Assembly: GCA_902510815.1 (NCBI GenBank)
Contig: CABXDI010000008.1
Span: 1 to 53,504 of the forward strand
Source of the DNA: an uncultured Verrucomicrobiota bacterium
Lineage (GTDB): Bacteria; Verrucomicrobiota; Verrucomicrobiia; Verrucomicrobiales; DEV007
DNA length: 53,504 nucleotides
Direction of reading: 5' to 3'
Shown here: positions 1,336 to 31,958 of the stretch, in pieces
How the letters are laid out: each line of letters begins with the position of its first letter
How positions within the stretch are numbered: the stretch's first letter is position 1
Notes under the pieces: model-generated
Told to the model about the DNA's origin: nothing
What the model saw: the letters and a program-made list of their open reading frames with translations, nothing else
Databases searched by the model: none
Program-made: the position numbers and the translations under genes

Positions 1336-4300
1336 TTATACGGCCCGGTTGACCCATTCTTCAGCAATGTCCTTCAGGTTGAGAGTCTGCTGATTTTCTC
1401 TATCAAAATATACTTTTTCTACTGACGCAATGGATTCATTCAATTGCAATTGAATGTCTTTAGCAAAATCTTTTTCTTTATGAATCTTACGTAATAGCCC
1501 AAGAACTGAGAAAGGAGTAATTTCATTTGGAACAGAAAAATTGGAAAGATCCTCCTTTTTAACGAAATCAGACGAAGCTTTCTTCTTAAGTTTAAAAGCT
1601 AAAGTAGATAAAAAAATCAAAATGAGTAATATCAAGAAAATCCATTTAGAATTTTTTTTATCATATTTTTGTTCCAGTTGAATTGTTTGGCTAGCAGAGA
1701 CTAAGTCGGCGTCATCATAACGCTGATAAAGAATTTCTTTAGTCTTTATAGCTGGTTCGGGGAAGCTAAAAGTAAGGCCGGATTTGGCCGATAAGTTTTC
1801 TGGCTTAGTGAATGTTAGTATCCAGTTCCTTTCAGATATTGGGCTCCCTTCTTTCGATTCTGCGTCGAGCTTAGATACAGAAATTTCACCTCCTGAAATA
1901 TCTGTTTGGAGAAAGTCACCAACATTAGGTTTAATTAATTGGTTCAGTGCTGGAACTAGTCCATTTGAAGAGGCTTTAATCTCAACTTTCAGTATTCCTT
2001 GATCGGCTTCTCTTTCATCAAGTATTTGAGTAATTTTTAAGTTTTCTGTAGGACGAGCGTCACCAAGCTCTGAGGTGGCATCAATTGGAATTGGAGCAGT
2101 GGCTATCGGAAGAATGACGAACCCTCCTGTATCTAAGAAATCTAGGTCAACCTGCATGGTAGGTACCTTGTCCACTTCTGGAGTGCGGGCTTTTAGCAAA
2201 ATATACGCGTAAGGAGTGAGGCGCCAACCTTCTTGGCCAGCTCCTTTTGAACTGATTTTACTGTCATGAAAGGTAATTGATATAACGTCAAAGTGTTCTG
2301 AAAGTGCTGAACGGCTAGTTTCTTCAAATTTGTCACGGTAATTCTGAGTTGGTCGACCATAGTTATAGGCGTAACTAGAATTCTTTTGATTTGTAAGATA
2401 TTTGGAGAAGCCGCCGGATTCGCGTTCTATTTCTTTGGTATGTTTAATATCAACGAAGATTCCAAATGGTGTTCCATGTCCTACGGTACTCGATCCATCT
2501 ATTCTCCCAACGAGCTGAATCTCGGAAGTTAGATCTTTGTAATAATTGTATAGTTTTTGTGCTTCAGTAGCCTTTTCATGATCACCAGCTATTGAAAGTC
2601 CATGTCTTAGGTAACGTTGTTTAAGTTCTGGTTTTACTGAACTAATTCTTGCTGCTAAAGCATTTGCAAAGCGAGCAAGGTGTCGTTCTGCCGAGTTTCC
2701 AGGTAATCCAAGAAGGGAGGTTTTGATTTTTTCGATCTCTTTTGGTGACGTTTGTTGAGATTCCCGAAGTGCATTCAGATCACTAGCACCGAGAGCCGCA
2801 TAAAACCAATGTTCAAAAGGTTCGGTTGTTTCCTCCTCTTCGGTCAAATTCGAAATATATAGCTCAACTGATTTCTTAAAAACTTCATAGTTGTTGTTTC
2901 GATCGATTGTATAAGTAGAGCTTTTTTGTGACTCTTGTTGAAAGTTTATCTTATCAAGATTTAGGCATGCTTTTCTCAAGTAGAGCTGCCAGTTATTAGG
3001 GTTAGCTTCTATACTGTTTTCCAAAATATTATCTATGCCTTCATAACCTGTAATTACCTCGGCAAAAATTTCAGCATCTTTGCGCTTTGTTTTGGCATCT
3101 TGTTGAGTTTTGGGGTTACGCCATACTGTTGCGAGATTAACACGCATAGTATTAGCTAAGGCGGCAACAGTCGAAGGGCTCATTTCTTTAAAGCTTCCAA
3201 ATACTTTAGTAATTGCGGATATCTTATAGACTTCTGCACGGCTATGAATTTTAGTGAAAGCTTCGGCGAGTTTATTTTGATCAATTTCTCCTATTGGTAA
3301 TGATTTTAATTTTTCAACCCACATAGCTAATTCAGTGAGATTTCGTTCTTGCTTAGAACGTGTCAAAGGAATCGAATTTGCTCGTTGATTATATCCATAC
3401 ATATAACCGTAACGATAATTACGATTGCGGTTTGCGTTGGGGTCATGATTGTCTGTCCAGACACGTAAAAATTCCTCAGCTAATTTTTTGCCTGTTTCAG
3501 GGTAATTATCAGAAATTTTCTGAATATAAGGAAATGCTTCTTCTGGTTCGTTCACTTTAAGAAAGAGTTGCGCAAATAAAGTTGAAAACTGAGGTCTAAG
3601 GTCTTCATCAATTAAGCGAATCCAATTTTCATTTGGTCGAATTTTTAATAGTTCCCCTGAGGCGATTGGAGCGGGCACGTTGCTTGGAATGGCGGTAGGA
3701 TTAACCTTAAGATTTTCATAGTACATATTCCCATATTGATCCCATTTCATTCTCGGGCTCATGGTTTTTGAGGCATCCTTTTTATAGCTATATGAAGCTT
3801 CTGAAAGCCAATTTTGGGCGAGTAGATTTAATATTCCAGACCACTCATTGAGTTTAATTTCACTTAATCCAATTAACGATTCTGCAGCAGTTTTTTGTAA
3901 AGTGAGCCTACGGAGGCGAGCAGAGGATGAAGGTTCTGACCTGCCTTTTGAAGTTATTGCTCCAATAGTTGCAAGAACCTCACGGCCAAGTTTAGCATCT
4001 CCAGTGAAACTTTTAGTTAGCCATTTTGAACCTTTTTCTTTTTCTATCTTGGGAGCGATTTCAACAGCTCTTTCAAGAGCCGTCTCCTTATCTTCTCTAA
4101 TAGTTTTTGGGTTTTCTATTATTAATTGGACTGCTTTCCAAGCTAACTCTAGGTGATCTTTTTTGGAATCATTTATGCTTAAAGCTAAATGATAAGTAGC
4201 AATAACATCGAGTACATTAGGATCATCTGAGTCATCGATTTTTGGCAGGAATTTACCTGCTTCAGTTGCTAGCCCTGCGCTGATTAACAGCCTGGCTGCG

Positions 4301-5052
4301 TTCATTCTCTTGTTGTTATCATCTGAGCCTCCCATCTTCTTGAGTCCTTTTTCAAGTAATGAGAGGGCAGTATCAGGAAAGTGACCTCGAGAAAGGGAGA
4401 TTTTAAGTAAGCGTCCCAATTTTGAAATAGTGGTTTTTTCATTTAAATCAATGGGACAGGCATCTCCTAAATATAGTATATCAGTAGGCGAAAGAAGGTG
4501 CTTTTCGGTATAAGCCATGTTGCGGGGCGGCGTGACCTTTCCGGACGTAACAATAGTAGGTGATGTTGTTCTTGTGGGGCGAATCCTTGGCGGTAGTGCG
4601 AGTGTATCTAATAAACTCAGATAAGCTTTGTGAGCATTTTCGGTTTTTTTAAATTGAGAAGAGAAGAAATCTGCAACCTCGTCCCAATTGCTTATAGTTA
4701 AATTTTTAGCTAGTGAATCTATTGCTAGATCGGCTGCACTTTTTGGCTGAGCAGTGGTTCCATTACTACTCTTTTCTTGTTGAAGGTTTCCAAGGTTTCT
4801 TAGAAGGGATGAGGGGCGACGATCAATCAATACTTTGGGTAGCTTTGATAGGATAAGTGCATCTAAATCAACTGGTCGCTTTTCTGATGAGGCTGTGGTT
4901 TTTGGTGTTTTATTTGGTTCGGATTCGTTGATAGGTTCTTGTAAATTTATTTTATCTTTAGACCCAGGTATAGTTTTGGTTAATCTCTCTTGGGATACCA
5001 AAATGGTTGTAAGCAATAATTTTATTAATACTGTGGAGATAAAAAGTCGCAT
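1336..5052 (-). CDS. Large exported, membrane-anchored protein of the Bat-type operon (unknown function)
   Basis: A 1238-residue protein if started at the ATG at 5052; an in-frame TTG at 5076 would add eight residues, but the ATG gives a cleaner Sec signal (MRLFISTVLIKLLL...). A Pro/Thr/Lys-rich N-terminal stretch is followed by a long, mostly helical, repeat-like region, with an Asn/Arg/Tyr-rich segment near residues 545-560 (PNANRNRNYRYGYMYGYN). One membrane helix (KWIFLILLILIFLSTLAF) lies near the C-terminus with a cytosolic tail of about 75 residues. This is the topology of BatD-like proteins: large periplasmic part, one helix, short inner domain. It is the last gene of the moxR-DUF58-VWA cluster. 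I recognise no catalytic motif; BatD-like is inference from topology and position. Confidence 0.7.
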   Translation of the reverse strand: MRLFISTVLIKLLLTTILVSQERLTKTIPGSKDKINLQEPINESEPNKTPKTTASSEKRPVDLDALILSKLPKVLIDRRPSSLLRNLGNLQQEKSSNGTTAQPKSAADLAIDSLAKNLTISNWDEVADFFSSQFKKTENAHKAYLSLLDTLALPPRIRPTRTTSPTIVTSGKVTPPRNMAYTEKHLLSPTDILYLGDACPIDLNEKTTISKLGRLLKISLSRGHFPDTALSLLEKGLKKMGGSDDNNKRMNAARLLISAGLATEAGKFLPKIDDSDDPNVLDVIATYHLALSINDSKKDHLELAWKAVQLIIENPKTIREDKETALERAVEIAPKIEKEKGSKWLTKSFTGDAKLGREVLATIGAITSKGRSEPSSSARLRRLTLQKTAAESLIGLSEIKLNEWSGILNLLAQNWLSEASYSYKKDASKTMSPRMKWDQYGNMYYENLKVNPTAIPSNVPAPIASGELLKIRPNENWIRLIDEDLRPQFSTLFAQLFLKVNEPEEAFPYIQKISDNYPETGKKLAEEFLRVWTDNHDPNANRNRNYRYGYMYGYNQRANSIPLTRSKQERNLTELAMWVEKLKSLPIGEIDQNKLAEAFTKIHSRAEVYKISAITKVFGSFKEMSPSTVAALANTMRVNLATVWRNPKTQQDAKTKRKDAEIFAEVITGYEGIDNILENSIEANPNNWQLYLRKACLNLDKINFQQESQKSSTYTIDRNNNYEVFKKSVELYISNLTEEEETTEPFEHWFYAALGASDLNALRESQQTSPKEIEKIKTSLLGLPGNSAERHLARFANALAARISSVKPELKQRYLRHGLSIAGDHEKATEAQKLYNYYKDLTSEIQLVGRIDGSSTVGHGTPFGIFVDIKHTKEIERESGGFSKYLTNQKNSSYAYNYGRPTQNYRDKFEETSRSALSEHFDVISITFHDSKISSKGAGQEGWRLTPYAYILLKARTPEVDKVPTMQVDLDFLDTGGFVILPIATAPIPIDATSELGDARPTENLKITQILDEREADQGILKVEIKASSNGLVPALNQLIKPNVGDFLQTDISGGEISVSKLDAESKEGSPISERNWILTFTKPENLSAKSGLTFSFPEPAIKTKEILYQRYDDADLVSASQTIQLEQKYDKKNSKWIFLILLILIFLSTLAFKLKKKASSDFVKKEDLSNFSVPNEITPFSVLGLLRKIHKEKDFAKDIQLQLNESIASVEKVYFDRENQQTLNLKDIAEEWVNRAV

Positions 5053-5132: not shown

Positions 5133-5249
5133 TTACGATCCGATACCGTCTGGCGGCGGCGCTTGGCCAGCCCCACGAGAATCCTTAGGTTTCTTGCCTG
5201 TTTTGCTTTTTCCAGCCCGACCGGGCTTGGTGCCACTTCCGCAACCTTG
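5133..5249 (-). pseudogene. In-frame 38-codon extension of the TPR gene beyond its TGA stop
   Basis: Reading past the TGA at 5252-5250 in the same frame gives 38 sense codons, beginning QGCGSGTKPGRAGKSKTG and ending PPPDGIGS, then TAA at 5135-5133. The composition (Gly, Lys, Ser, Pro-rich, no hydrophobic core) is what low-complexity C-terminal tails of BatC/TPR proteins look like, and the stretch is richer in GC than its surroundings. The stop context is CAA TGA CAA. This could be a recent nonsense mutation, stop-codon readthrough, a sequencing error, or a chance open frame. An inverted repeat (AGCCCGGTCGGGCT) at about 5214-5227 could also form a hairpin in the mRNA. Confidence 0.4.
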
Positions 5250-5837
5250 TCATTGATTAGGAAGAGGTAACCCTTGGAGTTCATCCAAATCCATTCGCGC
5301 AAGTTTTATTGAAGCTTCAAGGTTTTGGAGTAATTCATTATTTAATTTTTGATTGCCCTCACCTTTTACAAACTCCGAGGCCGCATAATAGTTTTGACGT
5401 GATGACTCAATGACTGGTTCCCAAATTTCACGAGAGTGCCCTTCTAGTCTCATTAGCCAAGTGATGTAATACTGAGCGTTGGCGAGAGTTGATTTTATTT
5501 CTGCTATGAGTTTAGGATTCGTATCCGCATTAATCTCTGATAACATAGACTCGAGGTTTTTATAAGCTTCCGGGAGTTGCGAGCATTGCATTTGAGCTTT
5601 GGCTTTTTCGATGCGTAATTTGGTTATTGTAGAAACATCTTCATTCGGCAATGAACTAATGGCTTCGTCAAACTCGACAACGGCTTCAGCAAACTCTTTA
5701 TTAGTGAGATGTTTTTCGGCTAGATCAATGTGTTGTGTAGCTTGATCAAACTTAAGGTTTTGTTGACCAGGACCAAAATGATAGGCCGTCGCACCTAGTG
5801 GAATAAGCAGCCAAATAAAGATGAAGAGCTTTCGCAT
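5250..5837 (-). CDS. Exported TPR-like protein (BatC-like), possibly truncated by TGA
   Basis: 195 residues from the ATG at 5837, which starts a good Sec signal peptide (MRKLFIFIWLLIPLGATA). An upstream in-frame ATG at 5906 would put 23 charged residues ahead of the signal and is less likely. The mature part begins with a TPR-like helical pair (HIDLAEKHLTNKEFAEAVVEFDEAI), a small helical repeat scaffold for protein contacts, and continues helical to the end. Position between the exporter gene and the giant gene in a MoxR/VWA cluster matches BatC. The frame stops at TGA (5252-5250) but stays open for another 38 tail-like codons, so the annotated protein may lack its native C-terminus. Confidence 0.75.
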   Translation of the reverse strand: MRKLFIFIWLLIPLGATAYHFGPGQQNLKFDQATQHIDLAEKHLTNKEFAEAVVEFDEAISSLPNEDVSTITKLRIEKAKAQMQCSQLPEAYKNLESMLSEINADTNPKLIAEIKSTLANAQYYITWLMRLEGHSREIWEPVIESSRQNYYAASEFVKGEGNQKLNNELLQNLEASIKLARMDLDELQGLPLPNQ

Positions 5838-5892: not shown

Positions 5893-8118
5893 CTATTTCT
5901 TATCAAACAGCTTTAAAAGAGCAGGAAGTATTATTAGGTCAGCAATGAGCGCTGTGCTTAGCGTTGCACAAGCAACTGATGTAAAAGCCCGATACATAGG
6001 AAGTGAGCTGAAAAGAACACTCCCTAGACCGCAGAGCAGGACAACGGTAGTCGCTATAAGCACTTGTCCTACTCGGATAAAACTAATTTCCAGTGCATGA
6101 TTAACATCAAGACCATTTTTCTTTTCGGAAAGGTATCGACTTAGAAAGTGAATGGCATCGTCAGCTGCAATACCAAGGCAAATTGTGAAAGCGCAAACAA
6201 TTTCCAGTGAAAGTGGCATTTTAAAAAAAGCCAATACTGCTGCACATGCTAGAAGAGGAAATAGATTTGGAATCATACTTATTAAACCAATTCTCAATGA
6301 GCGAAAGGCGATTGATATCATGACTAGAATTATAATTGATGCAGCAGCAAGACTAAGTGCCATGTCATTTAACATACGGTGCACATATCTACCCCAACCT
6401 ACCGCACCTCCAGCCAAGCCAAATTTATAACCGGGAGTTGATTTGCTAAGTTCTGCAAGTTTGCGTTCTAGTCTTTCATATACAGGAGTGTACTGAGCTA
6501 CACCCAGATCTTGTATTCTCGTAATAACTACTGCCTTATTAATGTCTGGACGATATAAGGTATTAATCAAATCTTGAGGGGCCTTTTTTAATAGTGGCAT
6601 ACGTAAAGAGAGGTCCTTTCCAAAACCTGGAAGTGAATCAAGAACACCTCTCACAGATAAAGGTCGACTCAGAAGTTTTTCCTGCTCAACGATTTCTTCA
6701 ATTTTTCTTATGATAGGTATTGGGTTGTCGTTATCAGATTCCCACTCTGTAACTATTCGGATAGCTTGAATACCTCCAAGACTTTTATCTGCTTGTTTAA
6801 GAGCTTCTCCACTTTCGCTTTCATCTGGCAACTGATTAAGCAGATGCATGTCTGGTTTTAAATTTGAAGTTAACCAACCAAAGAAAATTGTTAGAACAAC
6901 AGATATAGAAACGACCCATTTAGCATTTTTTATGACAAATCTTATTAGAATGAGGATAAATTTTTGCCAGCTACTAGAATTTATTTTTATGGAATGACTT
7001 TCCATTTGTACCTTGAGAGGGATAGGCAATAAACCCAGTAGCGGTAATAACAGAATGACTGCAAAAAATGTGATTAGTGTACCAACAGCACAATCTCGGC
7101 CAAAATCACTAATCATATTTGATTCGGCAACGGTAAGCGAAGCAAAGCCTGCGGCAGTCGTTAAAGCTGATAACATGCAAGGCAGTCCTAATTTTTGCAT
7201 TGAGACTGTCATAGCCTCTTTTCGGCCTAAACCTATAATAAGTTCTCGTCGAAACTGAAATACAATGTGTGCGGCATTGGTAAAACCGATCATTGTTAGG
7301 ATAATAGGCATGATGACCATTGATAAGCTATTGAGACGTTCATTGGTGAAGCCCAGCATTCCAATCGTCCATAAAACACCGACAAAAGGTGGCAAGGTGA
7401 CAATTAATGTCATCACAACGCCGCGGAAAAAAATCAGAGCAAGTATTGCAGAAAGTACATATCCAATGATTTGAAAACGTAACTTCTCAGTTTTCATAGC
7501 TTCACGCCGAGCAATATCTATTGGAATTTTTCCAGTTAATTTTGCTTCTAGCTTTGAACCATTGAGAACTTTATTTGCCTCTTTTCTTATTAAATTAAGA
7601 ATATTACTGATTTCTTCATTTGATTTTAAATTTAAGCTTATTGGGATTAAAGAAGTGCGAGCGTCTGAAGATAACAAGTGTCCAACGATAATAGGGTGAT
7701 TTAATGCTCTTTTTCGACATTCGTTTCGTTGCGATATCGATGCTCCTTTATCTGGAAATAATGAAAGCCTGATTAGGCCCATTCCATATGACGGTATTTG
7801 ATCAAAGCTGAATACTTGAGAAACGCTCGGTATTTTTTTTATTCTTTTTATTAGTTTTTTATAAGATTCAGATGCCTCCTTCTCAAACAAGTCTCCATTT
7901 TTTTCTTTATGGTTAATGAGTAGGATGATTTCAGACCCATCTGGACCAAATTCGCGGCTAACTGATTTAGTGAATTCATAATCTGCTTTAGCCCTTCCGC
8001 TTTTAATTTTTCTATTTTCTTTTTCCGAGTTGCTCCCGAAAATAGAAAAGGCACTAATGATTGCGAATAAAAAAATCGCTAACCATGGATACTGGATAGA
8101 GATTCCGGACAATTTCAT
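5893..8118 (-). CDS. MMPL/RND superfamily exporter (SSD-type membrane protein)
   Basis: 741-residue inner-membrane protein with the RND-type duplicated plan: helix 1 at about residues 12-30, an extracytoplasmic loop to about 212, a block of five helices (about 213-362), helix 7 (about 395-412), a second loop to about 590, and five more helices. The second half carries the conserved helix-4 motif GIAADDAIHFLSRY, whose aspartates relay protons in RND transporters. It belongs to the predicted-exporter/MMPL branch rather than the HAE1 drug pumps, as no membrane-fusion or TolC partner lies nearby. Its ATG overlaps the TGA of the upstream VWA gene (ATGA), so it is built into the Bat-type operon. 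Substrate unknown. Confidence 0.88.
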   Translation of the reverse strand: MKLSGISIQYPWLAIFLFAIISAFSIFGSNSEKENRKIKSGRAKADYEFTKSVSREFGPDGSEIILLINHKEKNGDLFEKEASESYKKLIKRIKKIPSVSQVFSFDQIPSYGMGLIRLSLFPDKGASISQRNECRKRALNHPIIVGHLLSSDARTSLIPISLNLKSNEEISNILNLIRKEANKVLNGSKLEAKLTGKIPIDIARREAMKTEKLRFQIIGYVLSAILALIFFRGVVMTLIVTLPPFVGVLWTIGMLGFTNERLNSLSMVIMPIILTMIGFTNAAHIVFQFRRELIIGLGRKEAMTVSMQKLGLPCMLSALTTAAGFASLTVAESNMISDFGRDCAVGTLITFFAVILLLPLLGLLPIPLKVQMESHSIKINSSSWQKFILILIRFVIKNAKWVVSISVVLTIFFGWLTSNLKPDMHLLNQLPDESESGEALKQADKSLGGIQAIRIVTEWESDNDNPIPIIRKIEEIVEQEKLLSRPLSVRGVLDSLPGFGKDLSLRMPLLKKAPQDLINTLYRPDINKAVVITRIQDLGVAQYTPVYERLERKLAELSKSTPGYKFGLAGGAVGWGRYVHRMLNDMALSLAAASIIILVMISIAFRSLRIGLISMIPNLFPLLACAAVLAFFKMPLSLEIVCAFTICLGIAADDAIHFLSRYLSEKKNGLDVNHALEISFIRVGQVLIATTVVLLCGLGSVLFSSLPMYRAFTSVACATLSTALIADLIILPALLKLFDKK

Positions 8119-9098
8119 TTTATTTTTTCCATTCTCTTATGGATGCCAACACGCCATTTTGTGCCAAAGGCATTAAGCATAAAAGGAAGGGCGGAAAGAA
8201 TAAGGGTGGATGCTCCTATTGCTATTAAAGCATATTCCCGACGAGTCATTTGGTCTAAGGCGCTTTTTTCATCTATCGAAACTAGGGATGAAATTGTGTC
8301 GCTCGGAATATGCTTAACATTGCCATCATGATAAGTACCATTAAGGCGTAATGCTATTTGCCGCAAAGTTGATGCGTCCTGTTTTGAGTTTTGGCCGTTA
8401 AGGAATGTTCCCTTTGTCGGGTTGCCGACGCCAATGACCAGTATTCCATTAACCGATCTGGGCATTTTAGGAATGCCAACTGAAGGAACAGTATCACCAT
8501 CTGAAAGTAGGACAATTGTAGTACTGTTCTGTCTCCATTGACTGGAAATATTCGCTGCAAGATTAAGCCCATCAAATAGATGTGTCTTACCAGCTTCAAA
8601 AGCAGTGTACATATCCATACCGTCGAGAAAATTGCGAACTACCTCTGGATCTTTAGTATCAACAACGACAGGTTTAGCGCCATTGTAAACTGCGATTAGA
8701 GAAAGTCTCATTTGTTCGACTCTTACCCTTTTAAAGAATGATTCCATTAATTCAAAAGCGCGTTCGCGTCTAGTTCTCGCTCCATCGCCCCCAGCGTCTT
8801 TAATTTTCATGCTTGGAGAAACATCAAGGACAATTACAATGTGTCTTATTTCATCAGGATCAACGGTTTTGGCTTTGTGAACCTTTGGCTGAATAGTTAA
8901 AAGAGTTGTGAGTCCCCAAATTATTAAAGTTATCGCAAGGCATCTTACTACTGGGGCAACCCTAGACCATGATGAGGGAAGTGCTGAAGGCCCGAATGAT
9001 AAGGTCGCAATCGCGTTTATTCGTCGCGAATGTATCATCTCTGCTCCAACTGTAAGCACGAGAGCCGCCAAAGCTAAGATTTCTGGGTTGGTTACCAT
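8115..9098 (-). CDS. VWA-domain membrane protein (BatB-like)
   Basis: 327 residues: helices at about 5-22 and 52-70, a von Willebrand factor A domain from about 85 to 275, and a C-terminal helix near 290-310. The metal-ion-dependent adhesion site is visible as DVSPSM (DxSxS) and the later LLSDGD. VWA proteins of this kind sit in the inner membrane with the metal-binding domain outside and work with MoxR ATPases in assembling or activating other proteins. The start overlaps the preceding VWA gene by 7 bases and the stop overlaps the exporter gene by 4, indicating coupled translation. BatA versus BatB is a guess from gene order. Confidence 0.88.
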   Translation of the reverse strand: MVTNPEILALAALVLTVGAEMIHSRRINAIATLSFGPSALPSSWSRVAPVVRCLAITLIIWGLTTLLTIQPKVHKAKTVDPDEIRHIVIVLDVSPSMKIKDAGGDGARTRRERAFELMESFFKRVRVEQMRLSLIAVYNGAKPVVVDTKDPEVVRNFLDGMDMYTAFEAGKTHLFDGLNLAANISSQWRQNSTTIVLLSDGDTVPSVGIPKMPRSVNGILVIGVGNPTKGTFLNGQNSKQDASTLRQIALRLNGTYHDGNVKHIPSDTISSLVSIDEKSALDQMTRREYALIAIGASTLILSALPFMLNAFGTKWRVGIHKRMEKIK

Positions 9099-10012
9099 GG
9101 TGTATAACGAAGACCAAAGAGGCTAAGTAGAAAAATCAATGCAATGGAGGTCCCTGCCATAGCAAAGGGTTTGAAATAATCCATTGATTCTGCTCCAACC
9201 TTCTCAATTTTAGTTTTCTGCATTTGGTCAATTTTATTGAATATCGCTTTGAGAGCGAGGGGATCACCGGCTGCAAAGACTTCTCCTCCTGTTCTGTTAG
9301 TTATCGTTAAAAGCTGCGGTGGTGGTGATCCTGGTGCAATGTGAATTGCATAAGTGGAAATATTGTTAGCTAAAAGTTTATTTGCGATTTCAATGTCTTT
9401 GCCTCCTCCAAGGTCGGCGCTATATCCATCTGATAAAAGGATAATTAAGCGATCACCTTCTTCACGTTCTACTAAGAGTTTCATACATTCTTCTAGAGCT
9501 AAGCCAATTTTAGTTCCGCCTCTGAACCAAATTGGTAAACGTCTTGGACCTAAAAAGTCAGTTGCATATCCAAATGCTGACGGGTCAGATGTGAGTCGGA
9601 TCCAGTGCAAGAAGTGATCACCAAAAACGGTTAAGCCAAAAGCATCTTCTTCACGGTAATTAATAAACTCATTGATGGCCCCCATTGCTGCCTCATAACG
9701 ATTACCTTCACCAAAGGGTGCGGTCATGCTTCCTGATACATCAAGAGCAAACTGAATATTAGTTAGCTTTTTTTTTGTTTTTGGTTCGGATATTTGTTGA
9801 GGTCCAGCTAAGATAAGTATGGCTATTATTAACAATAATGATGGAAATGAAGCCGTGATTTTAAGCAGATATTTCCATATACGATTCTGATTTATTTGAG
9901 CATTATCGACAGGAATTACTACTTGATGTCCGCTCACATTATAACGCCATATCCAGAACAGCATTGTTGCAGGAATTGCAAGCAGCATTAGAACTGGATA
10001 ATTTACAAACAT
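9092..10012 (-). CDS. VWA-domain membrane protein (BatA-like)
   Basis: 306 residues with helices at about 5-22, 50-70 and 285-303, and a VWA domain between them. The MIDAS residues are in DVSGSM, the GGT of FRGGTKIG, and ILLSDGYS, all complete, so metal binding is expected. This is the standard layout of BatA, which with BatB, DUF58 and MoxR forms the Bacteroides aerotolerance-type module found across PVC and Bacteroidetes genomes. Four bases separate it from the upstream gene and it overlaps the next VWA gene. The physiological role in this organism (stress tolerance, envelope assembly) is not shown by the sequence. Confidence 0.88.
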   Translation of the reverse strand: MFVNYPVLMLLAIPATMLFWIWRYNVSGHQVVIPVDNAQINQNRIWKYLLKITASFPSLLLIIAILILAGPQQISEPKTKKKLTNIQFALDVSGSMTAPFGEGNRYEAAMGAINEFINYREEDAFGLTVFGDHFLHWIRLTSDPSAFGYATDFLGPRRLPIWFRGGTKIGLALEECMKLLVEREEGDRLIILLSDGYSADLGGGKDIEIANKLLANNISTYAIHIAPGSPPPQLLTITNRTGGEVFAAGDPLALKAIFNKIDQMQKTKIEKVGAESMDYFKPFAMAGTSIALIFLLSLFGLRYTPW

Positions 10013-10016
10013 TCAA

Positions 10017-10808
10017 TCAATTAATTTTTGGTTCGCTGTATGGCTCTAGGAGAGCATCTAAATCAGAGGGTTCCTCTGGTTCCGGTTTATGAAACCAAGA
10101 TTCGAGTTTTTGAAATAAGGGTTTAGCCTCGGGGTGAGATTTAATTTTAGAAAGGGTTACCTTTGAGGTTTCATCTTTAAGATCAAGTCGATGGCTCCAA
10201 AAAAGGATGAGCGTTCTCTCCAACTTTGCTTGATCGTTTTTTCCTAGATTGCCTTGTCTAGCTGCTTCTACTAGTGGTCGTAAAATTTCAGCAGGGCTAG
10301 GAGACTTTCGGGCAGAAGATTTAATGAGGTTCAACTTTTTACGACCACCAAAGATTAGAAATAAGAGTCCTGATAGCCAGAAAATAGTACCAACAATTAA
10401 TATGTTTTTGTATTTAATGAAATGCGGTAATTGCCCTTCTGCCGGTGGATTAGGTTTGATCTGTTCTTTGGGCAAAGAAGATGTGAATAATATTGGAATT
10501 TTAGGTTTATCACTTAAAGCTATGTTATTTTTACCTTGGAAATAATCACCTAAATCATAAGAACCTGGCGCTAGCCCATAATATTCATAATCATAACGGA
10601 ATGCATTTCCGTGTGGGTAAACAGCTTTGATGCGTAAGACAACGGCGGATTCATTCGTTAAAGGCTTAGCTTCTAATTCAGGACCGGGTATGATTTCATC
10701 ATTTATTTGTACCTTTATGCCAATAGGTATTGATTCGATGATCTGATCATCAGCAATAAGAGGAGCCAGAAACAAATATAATATACTAACAAATCGTGAT
10801 AGTTTCAT
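10017..10808 (-). CDS. Signal-anchored protein of the Bat-type operon (unknown)
   Basis: 263 residues. A Sec signal (MKLSRFVSILYLFLAPLIA) precedes a roughly 110-residue extracytoplasmic domain rich in beta-prone sequence, a single membrane helix (ILIVGTIFWLSGLLFLIFGG, about 135-154) and a helical cytosolic tail of about 100 residues containing EILRPLVEAARQG and TLILFWSHRL. The same plan (outer domain, one helix, inner helical domain) is seen in the giant protein at the end of the operon. It lies 2 bases after the DUF58 gene and 4 bases before the first VWA gene, so co-translation is likely. No family is recognised with certainty; BatD-type or DUF4381-like partners in similar operons are the closest idea. 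Confidence 0.72.
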   Translation of the reverse strand: MKLSRFVSILYLFLAPLIADDQIIESIPIGIKVQINDEIIPGPELEAKPLTNESAVVLRIKAVYPHGNAFRYDYEYYGLAPGSYDLGDYFQGKNNIALSDKPKIPILFTSSLPKEQIKPNPPAEGQLPHFIKYKNILIVGTIFWLSGLLFLIFGGRKKLNLIKSSARKSPSPAEILRPLVEAARQGNLGKNDQAKLERTLILFWSHRLDLKDETSKVTLSKIKSHPEAKPLFQKLESWFHKPEPEEPSDLDALLEPYSEPKIN

Positions 10809-10810
10809 AG

Positions 10811-11674
10811 CTATCGTGTTGCTCGACTAAGTAAAGTGCGAGATTTAAAAAACTGACGCAACTTGTGTGCTATTGGTTCGTTAGTGAAAAGTTGCAAGAA
10901 ATCAATTCCTGACTTTTTTAGTTCTTCAGCGATCAATTTAGAATCGGTAATTTTAGACTTCTTTTTTATAATTCCGGTCGATCCAGTTTCGGCTTCTCTA
11001 ATTTTTACAAAGCCAGCACCATGAATTTCTGTTTCCACTGGATCAGTTATTTTTAATACTACACAGTCATGTTTCTGTGCAGCTAGTTTGAGTGCAGGCA
11101 TTGCACTAGAGTCGTATAGGTCAGATATTAGGACAATCATCGATCGGCTCTTTAAAATTGGCATTAGTTCAGATAGGCGGGAACCAATGCGCGTTGGTTC
11201 ATCTACACGATAGGACCGGAGTTTCAGTAACCATTGCAATATGCGGTCTTTAGAAAGCGTTGGATTTACAAATAATTCACGTCCGCCTGCTCCAACGACT
11301 CCGACTGGACTAATTCGTTCTAAAGCGGCCAATGCGATTCCTCCAGCTATTCTTACGGCGGAATGATATTTGCTGGTCTTAATTGAAGAAACTGTCATCG
11401 AAGCCGATGTATCTATAAGCAAATATATAGGTATTTGCTTCGGGGCTTCATATTCCTTTACGTGAAATTTTCCTGTTCTTCCAGTGACTTTCCAATCTAT
11501 TGATTTTATAGGGTCTCCAATCTGATATGCCCGTGATTGTATATATTCTATGCCAGAACCCAGAAAAGTAGAACGGTCACTACCATAGCCAATGTCATCA
11601 GCTAATTTCTTGATTGCGATAATAAATTGTCGGGAATCAATTGGGTCGCAGCAATCGAGGATATGTTCAGTCAT
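10811..11674 (-). CDS. DUF58 domain protein (MoxR partner)
   Basis: 287-residue cytosolic protein with the DUF58 core: the diagnostic segment RAYQIGDPIKSIDWKVTGRT (about 49-68) followed by a degenerate VWA-like fold starting YLLIDTSASM. DUF58 proteins almost always sit next to MoxR ATPases and VWA membrane proteins, as here. The role is thought to be linking the ATPase to its substrates, but the chemistry is not known. It starts 50 bases after moxR ends, and 2 bases separate it from the next gene. Confidence 0.9.
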   Translation of the reverse strand: MTEHILDCCDPIDSRQFIIAIKKLADDIGYGSDRSTFLGSGIEYIQSRAYQIGDPIKSIDWKVTGRTGKFHVKEYEAPKQIPIYLLIDTSASMTVSSIKTSKYHSAVRIAGGIALAALERISPVGVVGAGGRELFVNPTLSKDRILQWLLKLRSYRVDEPTRIGSRLSELMPILKSRSMIVLISDLYDSSAMPALKLAAQKHDCVVLKITDPVETEIHGAGFVKIREAETGSTGIIKKKSKITDSKLIAEELKKSGIDFLQLFTNEPIAHKLRQFFKSRTLLSRATR

Positions 11675-11724: not shown

Positions 11725-12702
11725 TTATCCCATAGTGTTTAGGATGCCTTCTAAGACATCCGAGGTATTCATACCATCTGCTAAAGCTTCGTAATTGAGG
11801 CGCATACGATGAAGAAGAACATCTTCAGCTAATTCAAACAAGTCTTCAGGAATTGCATAGTCTCGACCTTGAATCAGTGCTCTGGCTCTTGCTCCTTTTA
11901 TTAGCGCAATACCTGCTCTGGGACTAGCTCCTAGTTCAATATGTGAGTTATTGCGGGTTCGACTAATAAGTTCGACTACATGCTTAATAAAAACTTCACT
12001 CACATGAATTTTATGAACGGCGTCGATGACTGAAATTAAGTCATTAACTTCACCGACGGGATCATCAGAAACAATATCAAATTCAGTATTAGCCACTGCC
12101 CCACCGCCTTCTTTTTGAATACCTAAATCCAAATTGCGTTTTAATATTTCCTCTTCTTCTACTGGCGTTGGGTATTTTAGTCTGTGGCAAAGCATAAACC
12201 GATCGAGTTGAGCTTCTGGTAGCTCGAATGTGCCGCTTTGTTCAATGGGATTCTGCGTTGCAATAACGAGGAAGGGAATTGGCAGGCGATATGTGTTATC
12301 ACCAATGGTTACCTTCCGTTCTTGCATAGCTTCTAATAGTGCGCCTTGTACCTTTGGGGCCGCACGATTTATTTCATCTGCAAGTAAAAGGTTAGTAAAT
12401 ACAGGGCCTTTATGCGTGGTAAATTGACCACTAGTTTGATCAAGAATTTCCGAACCAAGGATATCGGATGGTAATAAGTCAATAGTAAATTGAATTCTAG
12501 AAAAATCTAAGTGAATTGCTTTGCCAAGTGCGTTTACTAAAAGAGTTTTTGCAAGGCCCGGCATTCCTTGAAGCAAAATGTGACCGCTTGTGAAGAGAGC
12601 AATTAGTAAGCGTTCAACTACATCATCTTGTCCAACAACCACGTTTGCTACCTGTTTGCGGACTGCTTCAATATAAGGTGTGTGATTGTTTGGACTTACC
12701 AT
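11725..12702 (-). CDS. MoxR-family AAA+ ATPase
   Basis: 325-residue cytosolic AAA+ chaperone-like ATPase. Walker A is GMPGLAKT (46-53), Walker B LLLADE (105-110) and the sensor-1 region VIATQNPIEQSG follows, with the second sensor and lid domain in the C-terminal third (SPRAGIALIKGARARAL). MoxR proteins drive maturation or activation of partner complexes together with VWA proteins. It heads the eight-gene colinear cluster 12702-1336. A 95-base gap from the citrate synthase stop probably holds its promoter; that gap has an imperfect inverted repeat (TTCTCGTTTTC / GAAAATGAGAA, 12748-12775). Confidence 0.95.
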   Translation of the reverse strand: MVSPNNHTPYIEAVRKQVANVVVGQDDVVERLLIALFTSGHILLQGMPGLAKTLLVNALGKAIHLDFSRIQFTIDLLPSDILGSEILDQTSGQFTTHKGPVFTNLLLADEINRAAPKVQGALLEAMQERKVTIGDNTYRLPIPFLVIATQNPIEQSGTFELPEAQLDRFMLCHRLKYPTPVEEEEILKRNLDLGIQKEGGGAVANTEFDIVSDDPVGEVNDLISVIDAVHKIHVSEVFIKHVVELISRTRNNSHIELGASPRAGIALIKGARARALIQGRDYAIPEDLFELAEDVLLHRMRLNYEALADGMNTSDVLEGILNTMG

Positions 12703-14087: not shown

Positions 14088-14978
14088 TCACAAAATACTA
14101 GCTAGTGTGGATCCCATTTCTGACGGGGTTTCTGCAACAGCTATTCCTGCCGCCTTAAGAGCAGTTTTTTTGGCGTGCGCCGTACCCTTTCCTCCAGAAA
14201 TAATTGCTCCTGCATGCCCCATTCTTCGCCCAGGAGGAGCCGTGGCTCCGGCAATAAATGCTGCTATTGGTTTATTACAGTTATCTTTTGCCCATTCTGC
14301 CGCCTCTTCTTCAGCGGTTCCGCCTATTTCACCAATCATAATGATAGATTCCGTTTCAGGATCATCATTAAATAATTTAAGGACATCTAAATGACTTGTG
14401 CCATTAATAGGGTCTCCTCCAATTCCAACACAGGTACTCTGGCCAAGGCCAAGTTGAGTGGTTTGCCAGACAGCTTCATAAGTTAATGTTCCAGATCTTG
14501 AAACGACACCTACTGAACCTTTTTTATGGATATAACCTGGTGCAATACCGATTCGGCATCCCCCGGATGATTCTGGCCCTGTTCCTGGGGTGACGACTCC
14601 TGGACAATTTGGCCCAATGAGTCTGCAATTAGTGTCATCCATCATAGAGCGGACACGCATCATATCAGCGACAGGAATTCCTTCAGTGATAGCAACTATA
14701 AGTTCAATGCCAGCGTCTACAGATTCCATGATGGCATCACCTGCAAAGGGAGGTGGAACAAAAATTGCTGATACTGTCGCACCTGTCTCTTTCATTGCAT
14801 CTTCCACTGTATCAAATATAGGTACTTGAGCTTCGAAAGTTTGCCCTCCTTTTCCTGGAGTTACACCTGCTACAACTTTTGTTCCATAATCAAGGCTAAG
14901 CTTGGCATGGGTTCCGCCAAAACCTCCAGTAATTCCTTGAATGAGAACTTTGGTCTCTGGTTTAACTAGTATAGACAT
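14088..14978 (-). CDS. sucD: Succinyl-CoA ligase, alpha subunit
   Basis: Forms the ligase with SucC and carries out substrate-level phosphorylation in the TCA cycle (succinyl-CoA to succinate). Motifs: N-terminal CoA-binding Rossmann segment [23 protein letters not shown] (160-169), [10 protein letters not shown] (186-194), [12 protein letters not shown] and the phosphorylated histidine H255 in RRMGHAGAI. 296 residues is the usual size. It is separated from sucC by an inserted PTPS-like gene, which is not the usual sucCD order; the gaps are short, so all three are probably co-transcribed. Confidence 0.97.
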
Positions 14979-15006
14979 TATTGTTATGTTAGTTTATTAT
15001 TGTATT

Positions 15007-15546
15007 TTAACTCAAGTCATTAATGGAAAGGTCTGGACGATTCCACCAGTGACACTGCCCCGAAGGTAAAAATTGTTCTATATTTTCGCAGCTAAAACAA
15101 ACTGCATTTGTAGGAGTCTCCTGAATTTTCAGATCGGTACAAAACAATTCAGTTTTATTTTGATCTAAGAATGTACTTAATTTTGCATAATAGCAGGCTG
15201 CCCTAATTTCAGTTGTTGGGTCACCAGGAGTTATTAAAAGCTTTGGTAAGAGTTCAGGTTCGTTTTCCCTGAAGTAATCAATTATAGGATCTTCATTATT
15301 AATGTGAAAACTGTGATCAACGGATTCGTCTATCCATTCAAACCATCGCCCTTTTGCTTCTTCAAATTCGACAAGCATATTAGTTTTAGAATCAAGCGGT
15401 TCATTACTTTTGTTGGTAATATTGACCGTGACCACTTCATCATGTCCGTGAGGAATTTGGCAGTTCTTAGCCGCACCACTAATTAATCGATGCCCCATAG
15501 AATATCGGCGAGTAAAATTGAGTACGATGCTGTGATTCGATTGCAA
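15007..15546 (-). CDS. 6-pyruvoyl-tetrahydropterin synthase / QueD-like protein
   Basis: 179 residues of the T-fold PTPS/QueD family, which converts dihydroneopterin triphosphate to carboxy-tetrahydropterin (queuosine pathway) or pyruvoyl-tetrahydropterin. Zinc ligands H19 (SMGHRL), H33 and H35 (PHGH) are present, as are C29, the D77-H78 pair (SVDHSF) and E143 in IQETPT, the pterin-anchoring glutamate. It is longer than QueD (about 120) because of an insert around 85-115 and a C-terminal extension with HWWNRPDL. It appears to use a TTG start, as no in-frame ATG lies ahead of the zinc motif. It lies between sucC (12-base gap) and sucD (28-base gap), an odd place with no pterin gene nearby. Confidence 0.82.
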   Translation of the reverse strand: MQSNHSIVLNFTRRYSMGHRLISGAAKNCQIPHGHDEVVTVNITNKSNEPLDSKTNMLVEFEEAKGRWFEWIDESVDHSFHINNEDPIIDYFRENEPELLPKLLITPGDPTTEIRAACYYAKLSTFLDQNKTELFCTDLKIQETPTNAVCFSCENIEQFLPSGQCHWWNRPDLSINDLS

Positions 15547-15558
15547 TGTTTGTAAACT

Positions 15559-16740
15559 TTATATGTTAATCGCCTTAACAGCTTTTTCGGCAGCATCTGA
15601 CAAATCATCTGCAGCTATCAAATCAACTCCAGAATTTGAAAGAGTTTTCTTTCCTTGATCGACATTATTTCCTTCAAGTCTAACGACTAGAGGTATGCTT
15701 AAATTCACTTGCTTACAGGCATTAACTATACCATTTGCGATGACATCACAATCCATGATGCCTCCAAAGATATTTACCAGAATTCCCTTAACATTTGAAT
15801 CTCCAAGTATAATTTTGAATGCATTAGTGACTTGTTCTTCAGTAGCACCACCACCTACATCTAAAAAGTTTGCAGGTTCTCCTCCATAGTGTTTGATAAT
15901 GTCCATTGTCGCCATTGCCAGACCGGCTCCATTTACAAGGCATGCAATGTTACCTTCCAGTCCAATATAATTCAGGCCGTATTCAGACGCTGCTACTTCG
16001 CGAGGATCCTCTTCTGATGTATCTCGCATAGTAGCAATTTCTTTTTGACGGTATAAAGCATTATCGTCGAAACCGAATTTGGCATCTAATGCAAGGACCT
16101 CACCATTAGGTGTAGTAACCAATGGGTTTATTTCAACCATTGAGCAGTCACAAGAAATAAATAATTTAAATAGAGATTTAAGAAGCTTTCCAAACTGCTT
16201 TGCAATATCACCTTCGAATCCAAGTTTATTAGAAATTTTTCTAATCTCATATGGTTGAAGCCCCGCGAGTGGATGAATTGATTCTCTTATGATTTTCTCT
16301 GGAGTGCTTTCTGCAACTTCTTCAATGTTCACGCCGCCCTCAGTTGAAGCCACAATGACAGGCGATTCACTGTCCCGGTCCATCAATATTGCAAGATAAT
16401 ATTCTTTTGAAATATCCACGGCCTCAGCAACCATGACTTTATTAACGACTTTACCATCTTCGCCTGTTTGGTGGGTGACAAGTGTTTGGCTAAGCATTTT
16501 CTCTGCTATGCTAAAAATTTCATTTGAATCCTCTGATAAGTGGACCCCACCTTGGAAACCATTTTTAAAAGTTCCTTTACCCCGCCCACCGGCATGAACT
16601 TGAGCTTTAATGACTATTTGCCCACTAATCTCATTTGCAATCTTGAGTGCTTCATCCGAGCTTTCAGCCATTCTTCCTTTAGGTGAAGGAACACCGAACT
16701 TCTCAAATAGATCCTTTGCTTGATATTCGTGTATATTCAT
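15559..16740 (-). CDS. sucC: Succinyl-CoA ligase, beta subunit
   Basis: ATP-grasp subunit that binds nucleotide and succinate. The N-terminus is canonical ([18 protein letters not shown]), followed by [19 protein letters not shown], the EINPL metal site and a C-terminal ligase domain with FGGIMDCD and VVRLEGNNV. 393 residues is normal. A 42-base gap follows the RluA-type gene, so it may be read from an upstream promoter or have its own; the next gene is the PTPS-like gene and then sucD. Confidence 0.97.
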
Positions 16741-29102: not shown

Positions 29103-31958
29103 ATGAAGATTGACTCCGCTGTTATTTTTTTTGCTACTTCGATTTTGGCGACTTCGGTCGTCCAGGCTCAGTCGGTCGCTGACAATTGGCACCAGTGGCG
29201 TGGCCCAGAAAATAATGGCGTCTCCCGCACCGCGGATCCACCTGTAGAGTGGAGCGAAGAAAAGAACGTTGCTTGGAAAATTGAAATAGGAGGCCATGGA
29301 ACCTCCAGCCCGATCGTGTGGGGCAACAAAGTATTTGTGACTACGGCCGTCAATACCGAGAAGGTTGATCCTTCACTGCCGAAGCCGGAAGATCAGCCAG
29401 AGAGGGTCTTCGGGATCAAGCATCCCAATACCAGTTACCAAATGACGGTACTCTGCATTGATAAAAATACAGGAAAGGAGCTTTGGCGGGACGTAGCAAA
29501 AACCTTGGTTCCCCATGAGGGTCATCACAGAGACGCCAGCTTCGCTTCGGCTTCGCCCTTTTGTGACGATAAGAGAATATATTTTTGGTTCGGTTCTGGT
29601 GGGCTATTTGCCTATAGCCATGACGGAAAAAAACTTTGGGAGCGTGACCTTGGAAAGGTAAAAGTGGGTGCAAGTTTGGGCGAAGGGAGCTCGCCGTTGG
29701 TCCATGACGGTAAAATGGTTATCGTTCGTGACAATGCCGGACAATCGACTATTGAAGTGTTGGATGCCAGTAATGGGGAGCCCATTTGGAAAAAGGATAG
29801 AGATGAGCGTAACGCCTGGGCCACACCGGCAATAGCAAAGTATCAAGGAGTGACACAGGTGATCACTTGCGCTTCGAATAAGGTCCGCAGCTATAACTTA
29901 ATAAATGGCGAAATAATTTGGGAGGCAAAAGGTCTGACATCAAACTGTATTCCGTGTCCGATCGTCCATGAGGAAGTTGTCTATTGTATGAGTGGCTACA
30001 AAGGATACTCATTGCTCGCTATCCCAATTACGGACAAAGGAGACGTTACGGATTCAGTCCTTTGGAAGGTCAAGCGAGGTACTCCTTATATTCCTTCGCC
30101 ACTACTCTATGATGAGCTGCTCTATTTCACTCAGTCGAACCAGAATCTTATGACTTGTGTTGATATTAAGGATGGTAGTCAGGTAATTGAGAAGGATCGG
30201 TTGCCCGGTCTAGGCGGAATTTACTCCTCACCAGTAGGGGCTGCTGATCGAATCTATATGACTGATAGAAAGGGAACGGTTTTGGTTTTGGAACGGGGCA
30301 ATAAGACGAAGGTACTCGCCACTAACGAACTGGATGATGATTTCCATACTTCTCCGGCCCTCGCTGGTAAAAAGCTCTTTTTGCGAGGGATGCGTTTTCT
30401 TTACTGTCTCGAAGAGAAGCGCGCTTCAGTTAAACAAAAGGTCGTTTCGGAAAAGCCTGCTGAGAAAAAACCAACTAATGCCAATAACTTTCGAAAACGC
30501 CCTAACGTTGTTACTCTACTTGTCGACGACTTGGGGTACCGCGACATCGGCTGTTACGGCGGCCCTGTTAAGACTCCCGTTCTCGATAAGCTGGCCGCTG
30601 GGGGCGTGCGTTTAACCGATTTTCACTCGGGAGCTCCTTCCTGCTCCCCCTCACGTGCCACTTTTCTTACGGGTCGCCACCACTATCGTGCCGGAGTCTA
30701 TTCCGTCATCACCGAACGGCTTCACAAGATGCATCTGCTGAAGAGCGAAACGACCATCGCTGAAGTGCTCAAGGAAAATGGCTACGCCACTGCCCACTTC
30801 GGCAAGTGGCACCTAGGCATGCCCGTCCAGAATCGCAAGAATCCCACCCCCGGCGATCATGGCTTCGACTATTGGTTCGGCCTCATCAACGGCCCGGGCC
30901 CCAGCCACAAGAACCCAACCCAGTTTCTGCGCAATGGCAAACGCGTGGGACAGATAAAAGGCTACTCCTGTCAAATCGTCGTCGATGAAGCCATCACTTG
31001 GCTCGATGAAAAGCGCGAAGCCGACGAGCCCTTCTTTCTCAATCTTTGGTTCAACGAACCCCACGCCCCAATCGCGGCGTCCGACGAGATCGTTTCCAAG
31101 TATGGCGAGCTTAACGATCAAGCCGCAATCTACAGTGGCACTATCGACAACACCGACCGGGCGATTGGACGACTCGTCGCCAGACTGGAAAAACTCGGGG
31201 AGCTCGATAACACCATCATCGTATATTCCTCCGACAACGGCAGCTACAGACAGGAGCGTAACGGAGAACTTCGCGGCCAGAAAGGATCTCAATTTGAAGG
31301 CGGGCACCGCGTCCCCGGCATCTTCTACTGGAAGGGTGGAATCCCTGGCGGACGTGTCGAGGACGAGCCCGCCGGTGTCGTCGATCTCCTTCCCACGCTC
31401 TGCGGATTGATCGGGATTGAAAAACCCGAAAAGGTCCATCTCGATGGCTCCGACCTTGCGCCTATGCTCACTGGGTCTGATAAGTTCAACAGGCATCAGC
31501 CGCTCTTTTGGATGACTGGCGCGAACATGGTCCTTCGAGTGGGTGACCACACTCTTTTTGCATCCGGCACTGCGAAATCACCGATCGACTTCAAAGCTGC
31601 CAATCGACTCACGGAGCAAATCAAGCAAGTCCTCGGCGATGATCTCGAGAAAGTGCTGGACGGAAGGGATGTTAAGGATCTTCGCAACCGCCTGTTTAAT
31701 CACGGGAGATTAGCCAATCCCGAGGCCGAGCGACTGCGGAACCAGCTTCGGGACTTGTATTACTTCAACGAAGCGTGGATCCCTGAACTCAAGAAGAGCG
31801 GGATTGGTCGTGTTCAACTGTATGACCTATCGAAGGATCTCGGTCAGCAAAAAAATATTGCGAAAAAGCGACCCAAACTCGTCACTCAATTGAAAAAGCA
31901 GGCCGCTGGAATCTACAGAAGTGTTATGGCCGATGCACCGGAATGGTCCTCAAAATGA
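29103..31958 (+). CDS. Secreted PQQ-type beta-propeller fused to a sulfatase
   Basis: 951 residues. A Sec signal (MKIDSAVIFFATSILATSVV, cleavage near AQA) leads into a quinoprotein/BamB-like beta-propeller (about 28-435): WRGPENNG, NVAWKIEI, and repeats such as GKELWRD, GKKLWERD and GEPIWKKD. A Lys/Glu linker (about 440-465) joins a complete sulfatase (466-951): metal-binding VDDLGYRDIGCYGG, C514 in SCSPSRATFLTGR (formylglycine site), HFGKWHLG and VYSSDNGSYR. Sulfatases of this family hydrolyse sulfate esters, usually of algal or mucin glycans, outside the cytoplasm. GC content jumps at the linker, so the halves probably have different origins. The ORF runs unbroken through the junction. Confidence 0.9.
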   Translation: MKIDSAVIFFATSILATSVVQAQSVADNWHQWRGPENNGVSRTADPPVEWSEEKNVAWKIEIGGHGTSSPIVWGNKVFVTTAVNTEKVDPSLPKPEDQPERVFGIKHPNTSYQMTVLCIDKNTGKELWRDVAKTLVPHEGHHRDASFASASPFCDDKRIYFWFGSGGLFAYSHDGKKLWERDLGKVKVGASLGEGSSPLVHDGKMVIVRDNAGQSTIEVLDASNGEPIWKKDRDERNAWATPAIAKYQGVTQVITCASNKVRSYNLINGEIIWEAKGLTSNCIPCPIVHEEVVYCMSGYKGYSLLAIPITDKGDVTDSVLWKVKRGTPYIPSPLLYDELLYFTQSNQNLMTCVDIKDGSQVIEKDRLPGLGGIYSSPVGAADRIYMTDRKGTVLVLERGNKTKVLATNELDDDFHTSPALAGKKLFLRGMRFLYCLEEKRASVKQKVVSEKPAEKKPTNANNFRKRPNVVTLLVDDLGYRDIGCYGGPVKTPVLDKLAAGGVRLTDFHSGAPSCSPSRATFLTGRHHYRAGVYSVITERLHKMHLLKSETTIAEVLKENGYATAHFGKWHLGMPVQNRKNPTPGDHGFDYWFGLINGPGPSHKNPTQFLRNGKRVGQIKGYSCQIVVDEAITWLDEKREADEPFFLNLWFNEPHAPIAASDEIVSKYGELNDQAAIYSGTIDNTDRAIGRLVARLEKLGELDNTIIVYSSDNGSYRQERNGELRGQKGSQFEGGHRVPGIFYWKGGIPGGRVEDEPAGVVDLLPTLCGLIGIEKPEKVHLDGSDLAPMLTGSDKFNRHQPLFWMTGANMVLRVGDHTLFASGTAKSPIDFKAANRLTEQIKQVLGDDLEKVLDGRDVKDLRNRLFNHGRLANPEAERLRNQLRDLYYFNEAWIPELKKSGIGRVQLYDLSKDLGQQKNIAKKRPKLVTQLKKQAAGIYRSVMADAPEWSSK

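Follow-up and report, generated by a model that had tools for sequence, protein, structure and literature searches.

The TGA codon at positions 5250-5252 most likely encodes selenocysteine (Sec), which would make the gene it interrupts a selenoprotein gene; judging from sequence comparisons, we put the probability of this reading at about 0.95. The codon lies on the minus strand of the window (the whole stretch of 53,504 nucleotides analysed), in a frame that starts with ATG at 5837, runs for 195 codons up to TGA and goes on for 38 sense codons (QGCGSGTKPGRAGKSKTGKKPKDSRGAGQAPPPDGIGS) before TAA at 5133-5135. Comparative data document the Sec codon, its SECIS hairpin, Sec/Cys exchange, co-occurrence with the Sec machinery and conservation of the operon. 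Sec recoding, which the initial annotation had not named, would account for the in-frame UGA and the hairpin with its GGU loop as well as for the Cys homologues and the association with Sec machinery. The predicted gene is organised as follows:

5133..5837, minus strand: complete coding sequence (234 residues, Sec196 included), TAA stop at 5133-5135
5781..5837, minus strand: probable signal peptide or membrane anchor MRKLFIFIWLLIPLGATAY (judged from sequence; the hydrophobic start is conserved in alignment A1)
5274..5780, minus strand: TPR-like all-helical body (AlphaFold2, Foldseek, weak Pfam TPR matches in relatives)
5250..5252, minus strand: predicted Sec-encoding TGA, residue 196 (TGA shared with 57 other genomes; replaced by a Cys codon in 20)
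5241..5243, minus strand: TGC Cys codon completing the UQGC (UxxC) motif (alignment A1), absent from a few Planctomycetota members
5214..5227, minus strand: bacterial-type SECIS apical hairpin AGCCC-GGUC-GGGCU, loop GGUC at 5219-5222 starting 27 nt after UGA
5136..5249, minus strand: flexible Gly/Lys/Pro tail after Sec, ending PPPDGIGS (Ka/Ks; low pLDDT)

In alignment A1 the ATG at 5837 is conserved as the start, while the mechanically listed upstream TTG (5906) is not. The initial annotation had described both the same-frame extension of 38 codons and a hairpin at 5214-5227. Both descriptions proved exact. The extension is translated and conserved in relatives, so that the protein does not end at the TGA, and the hairpin matters as a SECIS element. 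We scanned the window for frames closed by TGA after 60 codons or more, requiring a further open stretch of 20 codons or more and a hairpin with a GGT loop and a stem no shorter than 5 bp. Apart from the target site, just one other site passed (a 65-codon frame opposite a likely gene), so the combination of TGA, tail and hairpin exceeds what chance would be expected to give.

A search of 96 relatives returned 20 matches, most of them having open frames that end where the window gene does. Reading these matches past their stops has revealed TGA in nearly all of them, followed by a shared tail (xGCGSG...PGRAGK.KTGKK..DSRGAG.APPPDGIGS). The initial annotation had looked to sister genomes for an answer, and they supply one: the tail is conserved and the site is occupied by TGA in nearly all of these matches, with TGC (Cys) instead in G060. 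After the set was enlarged by class-wide and Planctomycetota searches, UGA with the conserved tail was found in 57 other genomes (21 Verrucomicrobiota and 36 Planctomycetota), and Cys occupied the Sec site in 20 homologues, within motifs such as CKNC, CNGC, CSGC, CNC, CKCKGCC and similar. The same TGA, tail and hairpin recur in two phyla, and the tree of homologues requires at least five changes between U and C. A fresh nonsense mutation or a base-call error in an otherwise normal gene, as envisaged at first, can be practically dismissed, given that the same TGA is kept in 57 other genomes and the tail has a Ka/Ks of about 0.05.

The CAA codons on both sides of TGA had been likened to the leaky stop of TMV. 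The CAA-TGA-CAA context itself is present, but the analogy does not hold: relatives have various codons following TGA (CAA, CGT, CGG, AGT, GAG, AAA, ATT, GAC), so the context is incidental. TMV-type readthrough was rejected because no leaky context is conserved after the stop and because it is specifically Cys codons that replace UGA.

By its comparative signature, the hairpin downstream of UGA is a textbook bacterial SECIS. Folded on its own, the window hairpin is no more stable than its shuffled versions (z 0.00) and an Rfam scan of the site gave no SECIS call; since single-sequence folding was not significant, covariation was used instead. Among 34 distinct sequences, the five-pair stem around an invariant GGUC loop is 96.5% paired, compared to 64.8% after shuffling, although this percentage is biased upward because rows were admitted to the stem alignment only with at least three of the four inner pairs formed. 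In the same 34 sequences all five stem pairs display two-sided compensatory changes, which are less affected by this filter. The covariation score of the stem is 0.735 vs 0.18 for shuffled alignments and at most 0.15 when the stem is slid along the alignment. In each of the 54 cases scored, the loop Gly is encoded by GGT, a codon used at 58 of the 284 other Gly positions nearby. The loop lies 18-39 nt after the first UGA, the distance being greatest in genes with two UGA codons. In one Planctomycetota subgroup the loop is GGUU(C) and the stem is weaker and variable.

Genes for Sec synthesis and insertion follow the distribution of the UGA form. Apart from the window's own, all UGA genomes were found to have selA and/or selB. 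By contrast, selA is present in four of the 20 Cys genomes; the other 16 lack it above the cut-off, one of them (G439) having a fragment. Among tree-placed rows, excluding the window, Sec machinery is found in 55/55 UGA genomes and 4/20 Cys genomes (Fisher p 6e-13, a value that ignores relatedness). Three phylogenetically independent pairs are available on well-supported branches; they are concordant wherever selA differs, but too few for significance. Many family members have full-length tRNA-Sec candidates (about 91-95 nt) scoring above the cut-off, among them G002, G005, G007 and G008 of the window genus. In the window's own assembly (2.2 Mb in 138 contigs, 54% complete) selA, selB and tRNA-Sec were not found. 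It does include a selD gene:

Own genome, contig C15:5189-6112 (locus L149), minus strand: predicted Sec-containing SelD, TGA at TCG-U-AAK

This gene has an in-frame TGA at the catalytic position, followed by the same CCCGGUCGGG hairpin, which makes it very probable that the source organism uses Sec. The likeness between the two genes is confined to the recoding signal, with its identical CCCGGUCGGG hairpin, as SelD is an unrelated protein.

These data also bear on readthrough of UGA by a near-cognate tRNA, either leaky or programmed, which would yield a minor extended form of the protein without Sec. The UGA-C context and the downstream hairpin in the window genome would suit such a mechanism, as would the protein-level constraint on the tail. 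It is nevertheless very improbable, since Cys codons replace UGA in genomes lacking the Sec machinery, the GGU-loop SECIS covaries, second UGA codons occur at or near the motif Cys position and the base following UGA is not always C. The leaky UGA-C stop proposed initially is also incompatible with the retention of UGA in 57 other genomes.

The tail behaves as coding sequence. Between the window gene and its nearest relative, G002, Ka is 0.045 and Ks 1.0 in the tail, compared to 0.09 and 0.95 in the body. The low Ka relative to Ks therefore identifies the tail as protein-coding, and a Ka/Ks of about 0.05 corresponds to strong constraint on the protein. A separate small gene made up of the 38 codons after a genuine UGA stop was also considered, as in the window genome an ATG does overlap the stop (CAATGACAA). 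However, this ATG is out of frame, the conserved tail itself lacks a start codon, and in the Cys homologues tail and body are continuous, leaving a two-gene arrangement with hardly any credibility compared to a single selenoprotein gene.

UxGC is the main form among the tail motifs (ARRANGEMENTS), but the arrangement of Sec and Cys is variable. Second UGA codons occur at or near the motif Cys position in some relatives, and there are tails with two Sec codons (UxxxxU or UxxxU), namely U-x4-U in L033 and L101-L103 and UQGTU in L030. Twelve Planctomycetota have a vicinal Cys-Sec pair (the C-U form) within GGCUQGSG or GACUQGTG, the GGCUQGSG type being represented by loci L114-L125. The UxxC motif is not universal, as L109 (Planctomycetota) retains Sec in a motif without the partner Cys. 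Sec-less Verrucomicrobiota have CKNC, CNGC, CSGC or CNC, and CKCKGCCNGVCN is found in Sec-less Planctomycetota.

A related but distant subfamily with a GQCMxxQ tail lacks the Sec site and was kept separate from the family (G065, G288, G311, G115). Its tail reads PLPKEGQCMxxQGLSEQM (L019, L068, L069, L070), with no Cys in L070. One of these genomes, G065, is a Sec user.

The Sec gene belongs to an operon with the gene order MoxR, DUF58, 263-aa gene, BatA, BatB, [MMPL], Sec gene and ~1,240-aa gene, which is found in most of the 18 loci, in both phyla. In the window the neighbours are:

11725..12702, minus strand: MoxR-type AAA+ ATPase (Pfam AAA_3, E 6.5e-62)
10811..11674, minus strand: DUF58 protein (Pfam PF01882, E 1.8e-35)
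10017..10808, minus strand: 263-aa operon gene, no family match, conserved position
9092..10012, minus strand: BatA-like VWA protein (NCBIfam BatA_Lepto, E 1.8e-18, below the cut-off of that model; synteny)
8115..9098, minus strand: BatB-like VWA protein (Pfam VWA_2; synteny)
5893..8118, minus strand: MMPL/RND-type transporter, inserted between batB and the Sec gene (Pfam MMPL)
1336..5052, minus strand: large gene (about 1,240 aa) further downstream in the operon, a partner conserved in the two phyla

The MMPL insertion is seen in the window genus and in G025 (MMPL is present in L130-L132) and is absent from the other syntenic loci checked. The ~1,240-aa protein (1336-5052) has no Pfam or NCBIfam match and is a candidate partner of the selenoprotein.

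Two other loci of the window deserve mention. Positions 29103-31958 code for a 951-aa protein combining an N-terminal PQQ/BamB-like propeller with a C-terminal sulfatase domain. Within 14088-16740, a 6-pyruvoyl-tetrahydropterin synthase-like gene (15007-15546) is located between what appear to be the genes for the two succinyl-CoA ligase subunits.

In the AlphaFold2 model the body is all-helical and confidently predicted (mean pLDDT 83.8), whereas the tail is disordered, with pLDDT below 50 from residue 207. The top Foldseek matches include many TPR domains, none of them at E<=0.001, and Pfam TPR matches are weak and limited to some relatives. The initial description of the gene as BatC/TPR-like agrees with its operon position and with the TPR-like model. 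Judging by its N-terminus, the protein is probably exported or membrane-anchored.

The closest known counterpart is BatC of the Bacteroides/Leptospira aerotolerance operon (NF047507, TPR_BatC_Lepto), which likewise follows batA-batB in a moxR operon (after the inserted MMPL gene in our case), is TPR-like and is probably exported. The window protein differs from it by the Sec/Cys tail. Two family members match the NF047507 profile weakly (E 0.008-0.05); the window protein scores 13.1 bits against a cut-off of 175 in this model, which was built for Leptospira. Our literature searches turned up neither a BatC with Sec nor any earlier description of a family of this kind, although a prior mention is possible.

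Pfam and NCBIfam offer no selenoprotein family for the window protein, and none of 20 family members matched any NCBIfam 20.0 selenoprotein model at E<=0.1. The hypothetical selenoproteins GOS_B and GOS_C were considered and rejected, since the fold of GOS_C is Trx-like and there was no match to any NCBIfam selenoprotein model. A C-terminal tail with Sec (GCUG) is characteristic of animal thioredoxin reductase, whose mobile C-terminal arm likewise bears a redox-active pair of Sec and Cys. The window protein is not homologous to it, has a TPR body with neither a flavin nor a reductase domain, and carries U before C. UxxC selenoproteins listed in the 119-family inventory (PMC13188914) share with the window gene a UGA followed by a GGU-loop SECIS, the UxxC motif and the existence of Cys homologues; the difference is that Sec of the window protein is located in a flexible tail rather than in a thioredoxin fold. 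The table of 119 prokaryotic selenoprotein families in this 2026 inventory (PMC13188914) includes no TPR/BatC family.

We suggest the following course of events. The SECIS hairpin after UGA would recruit SelB with Sec-tRNA(Sec), UGA would be decoded as Sec and the ribosome would go on through the 38-residue tail. The product, probably exported or anchored, may dock by its TPR-like scaffold onto the MoxR-dependent BatA/BatB complex, with the U-Q-G-C redox pair borne on the flexible C-terminal arm. This pair could cycle between the Sec-Cys selenenylsulfide and the reduced form, passing reducing equivalents to Bat clients or to damaged envelope proteins. Such a relay would be in keeping with a pair of Sec and Cys on the flexible arm of a TPR protein that is probably exported. 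Redox shuttling by selenol and thiol at the cell envelope is the role that we consider most likely, at slightly better than even odds.

Redox catalysis is what Sec is commonly selected for, which speaks against the main rival function for a Sec-containing tail, namely a metal-binding arm (e.g., for Cu, Zn or Hg) delivering or scavenging metal for MoxR/VWA-assisted metallation. Consistent with metal binding, the Cys homologues are Cys-rich (CKCKGCCNGVCN, CNGCCSGKC), and insertion of metals is driven by MoxR/VWA pairs, NorQD among them (PMC13036017, PMC9976466). However, most Sec forms hold just U and one C, and the U-only (L109) and C-U forms would be weak metal sites, so we regard this alternative as rather doubtful.

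With respect to the redox shuttle, a role in reducing damaged periplasmic proteins or in exporting reducing power has been proposed for the Bat proteins (PMC3557215). Their biochemical function has been open since 1999: export of reducing power was never shown and found no support in Leptospira, where bat deletion mutants have no oxidative-stress phenotype, which counts against a redox role (PMC3557215). A broader proposition is that the proteins described here form an undescribed selenoprotein family with at least four Sec/Cys arrangements on a disordered tail (UxGC, UxxxU/UxxxxU, C-U and Cys-rich) and that this family is also the missing redox-active Bat component, so that in Verrucomicrobiota and Planctomycetota Bat would export or relay reducing equivalents via the selenol arm. 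We give this combined proposition even odds.

Overall, the window gene can be considered to represent a probable new selenoprotein family in two phyla, members of which standard gene callers will truncate at UGA. It is unusual for Sec to occur in such varied arrangements on a tail that is unstructured and not part of a thioredoxin fold, and this may be useful for understanding why Sec is kept. The Bat operon, widespread but functionally mysterious, would gain its first obvious redox-active residue, and the Sec/Cys site would provide a single residue to mutate in studies of Bat function.
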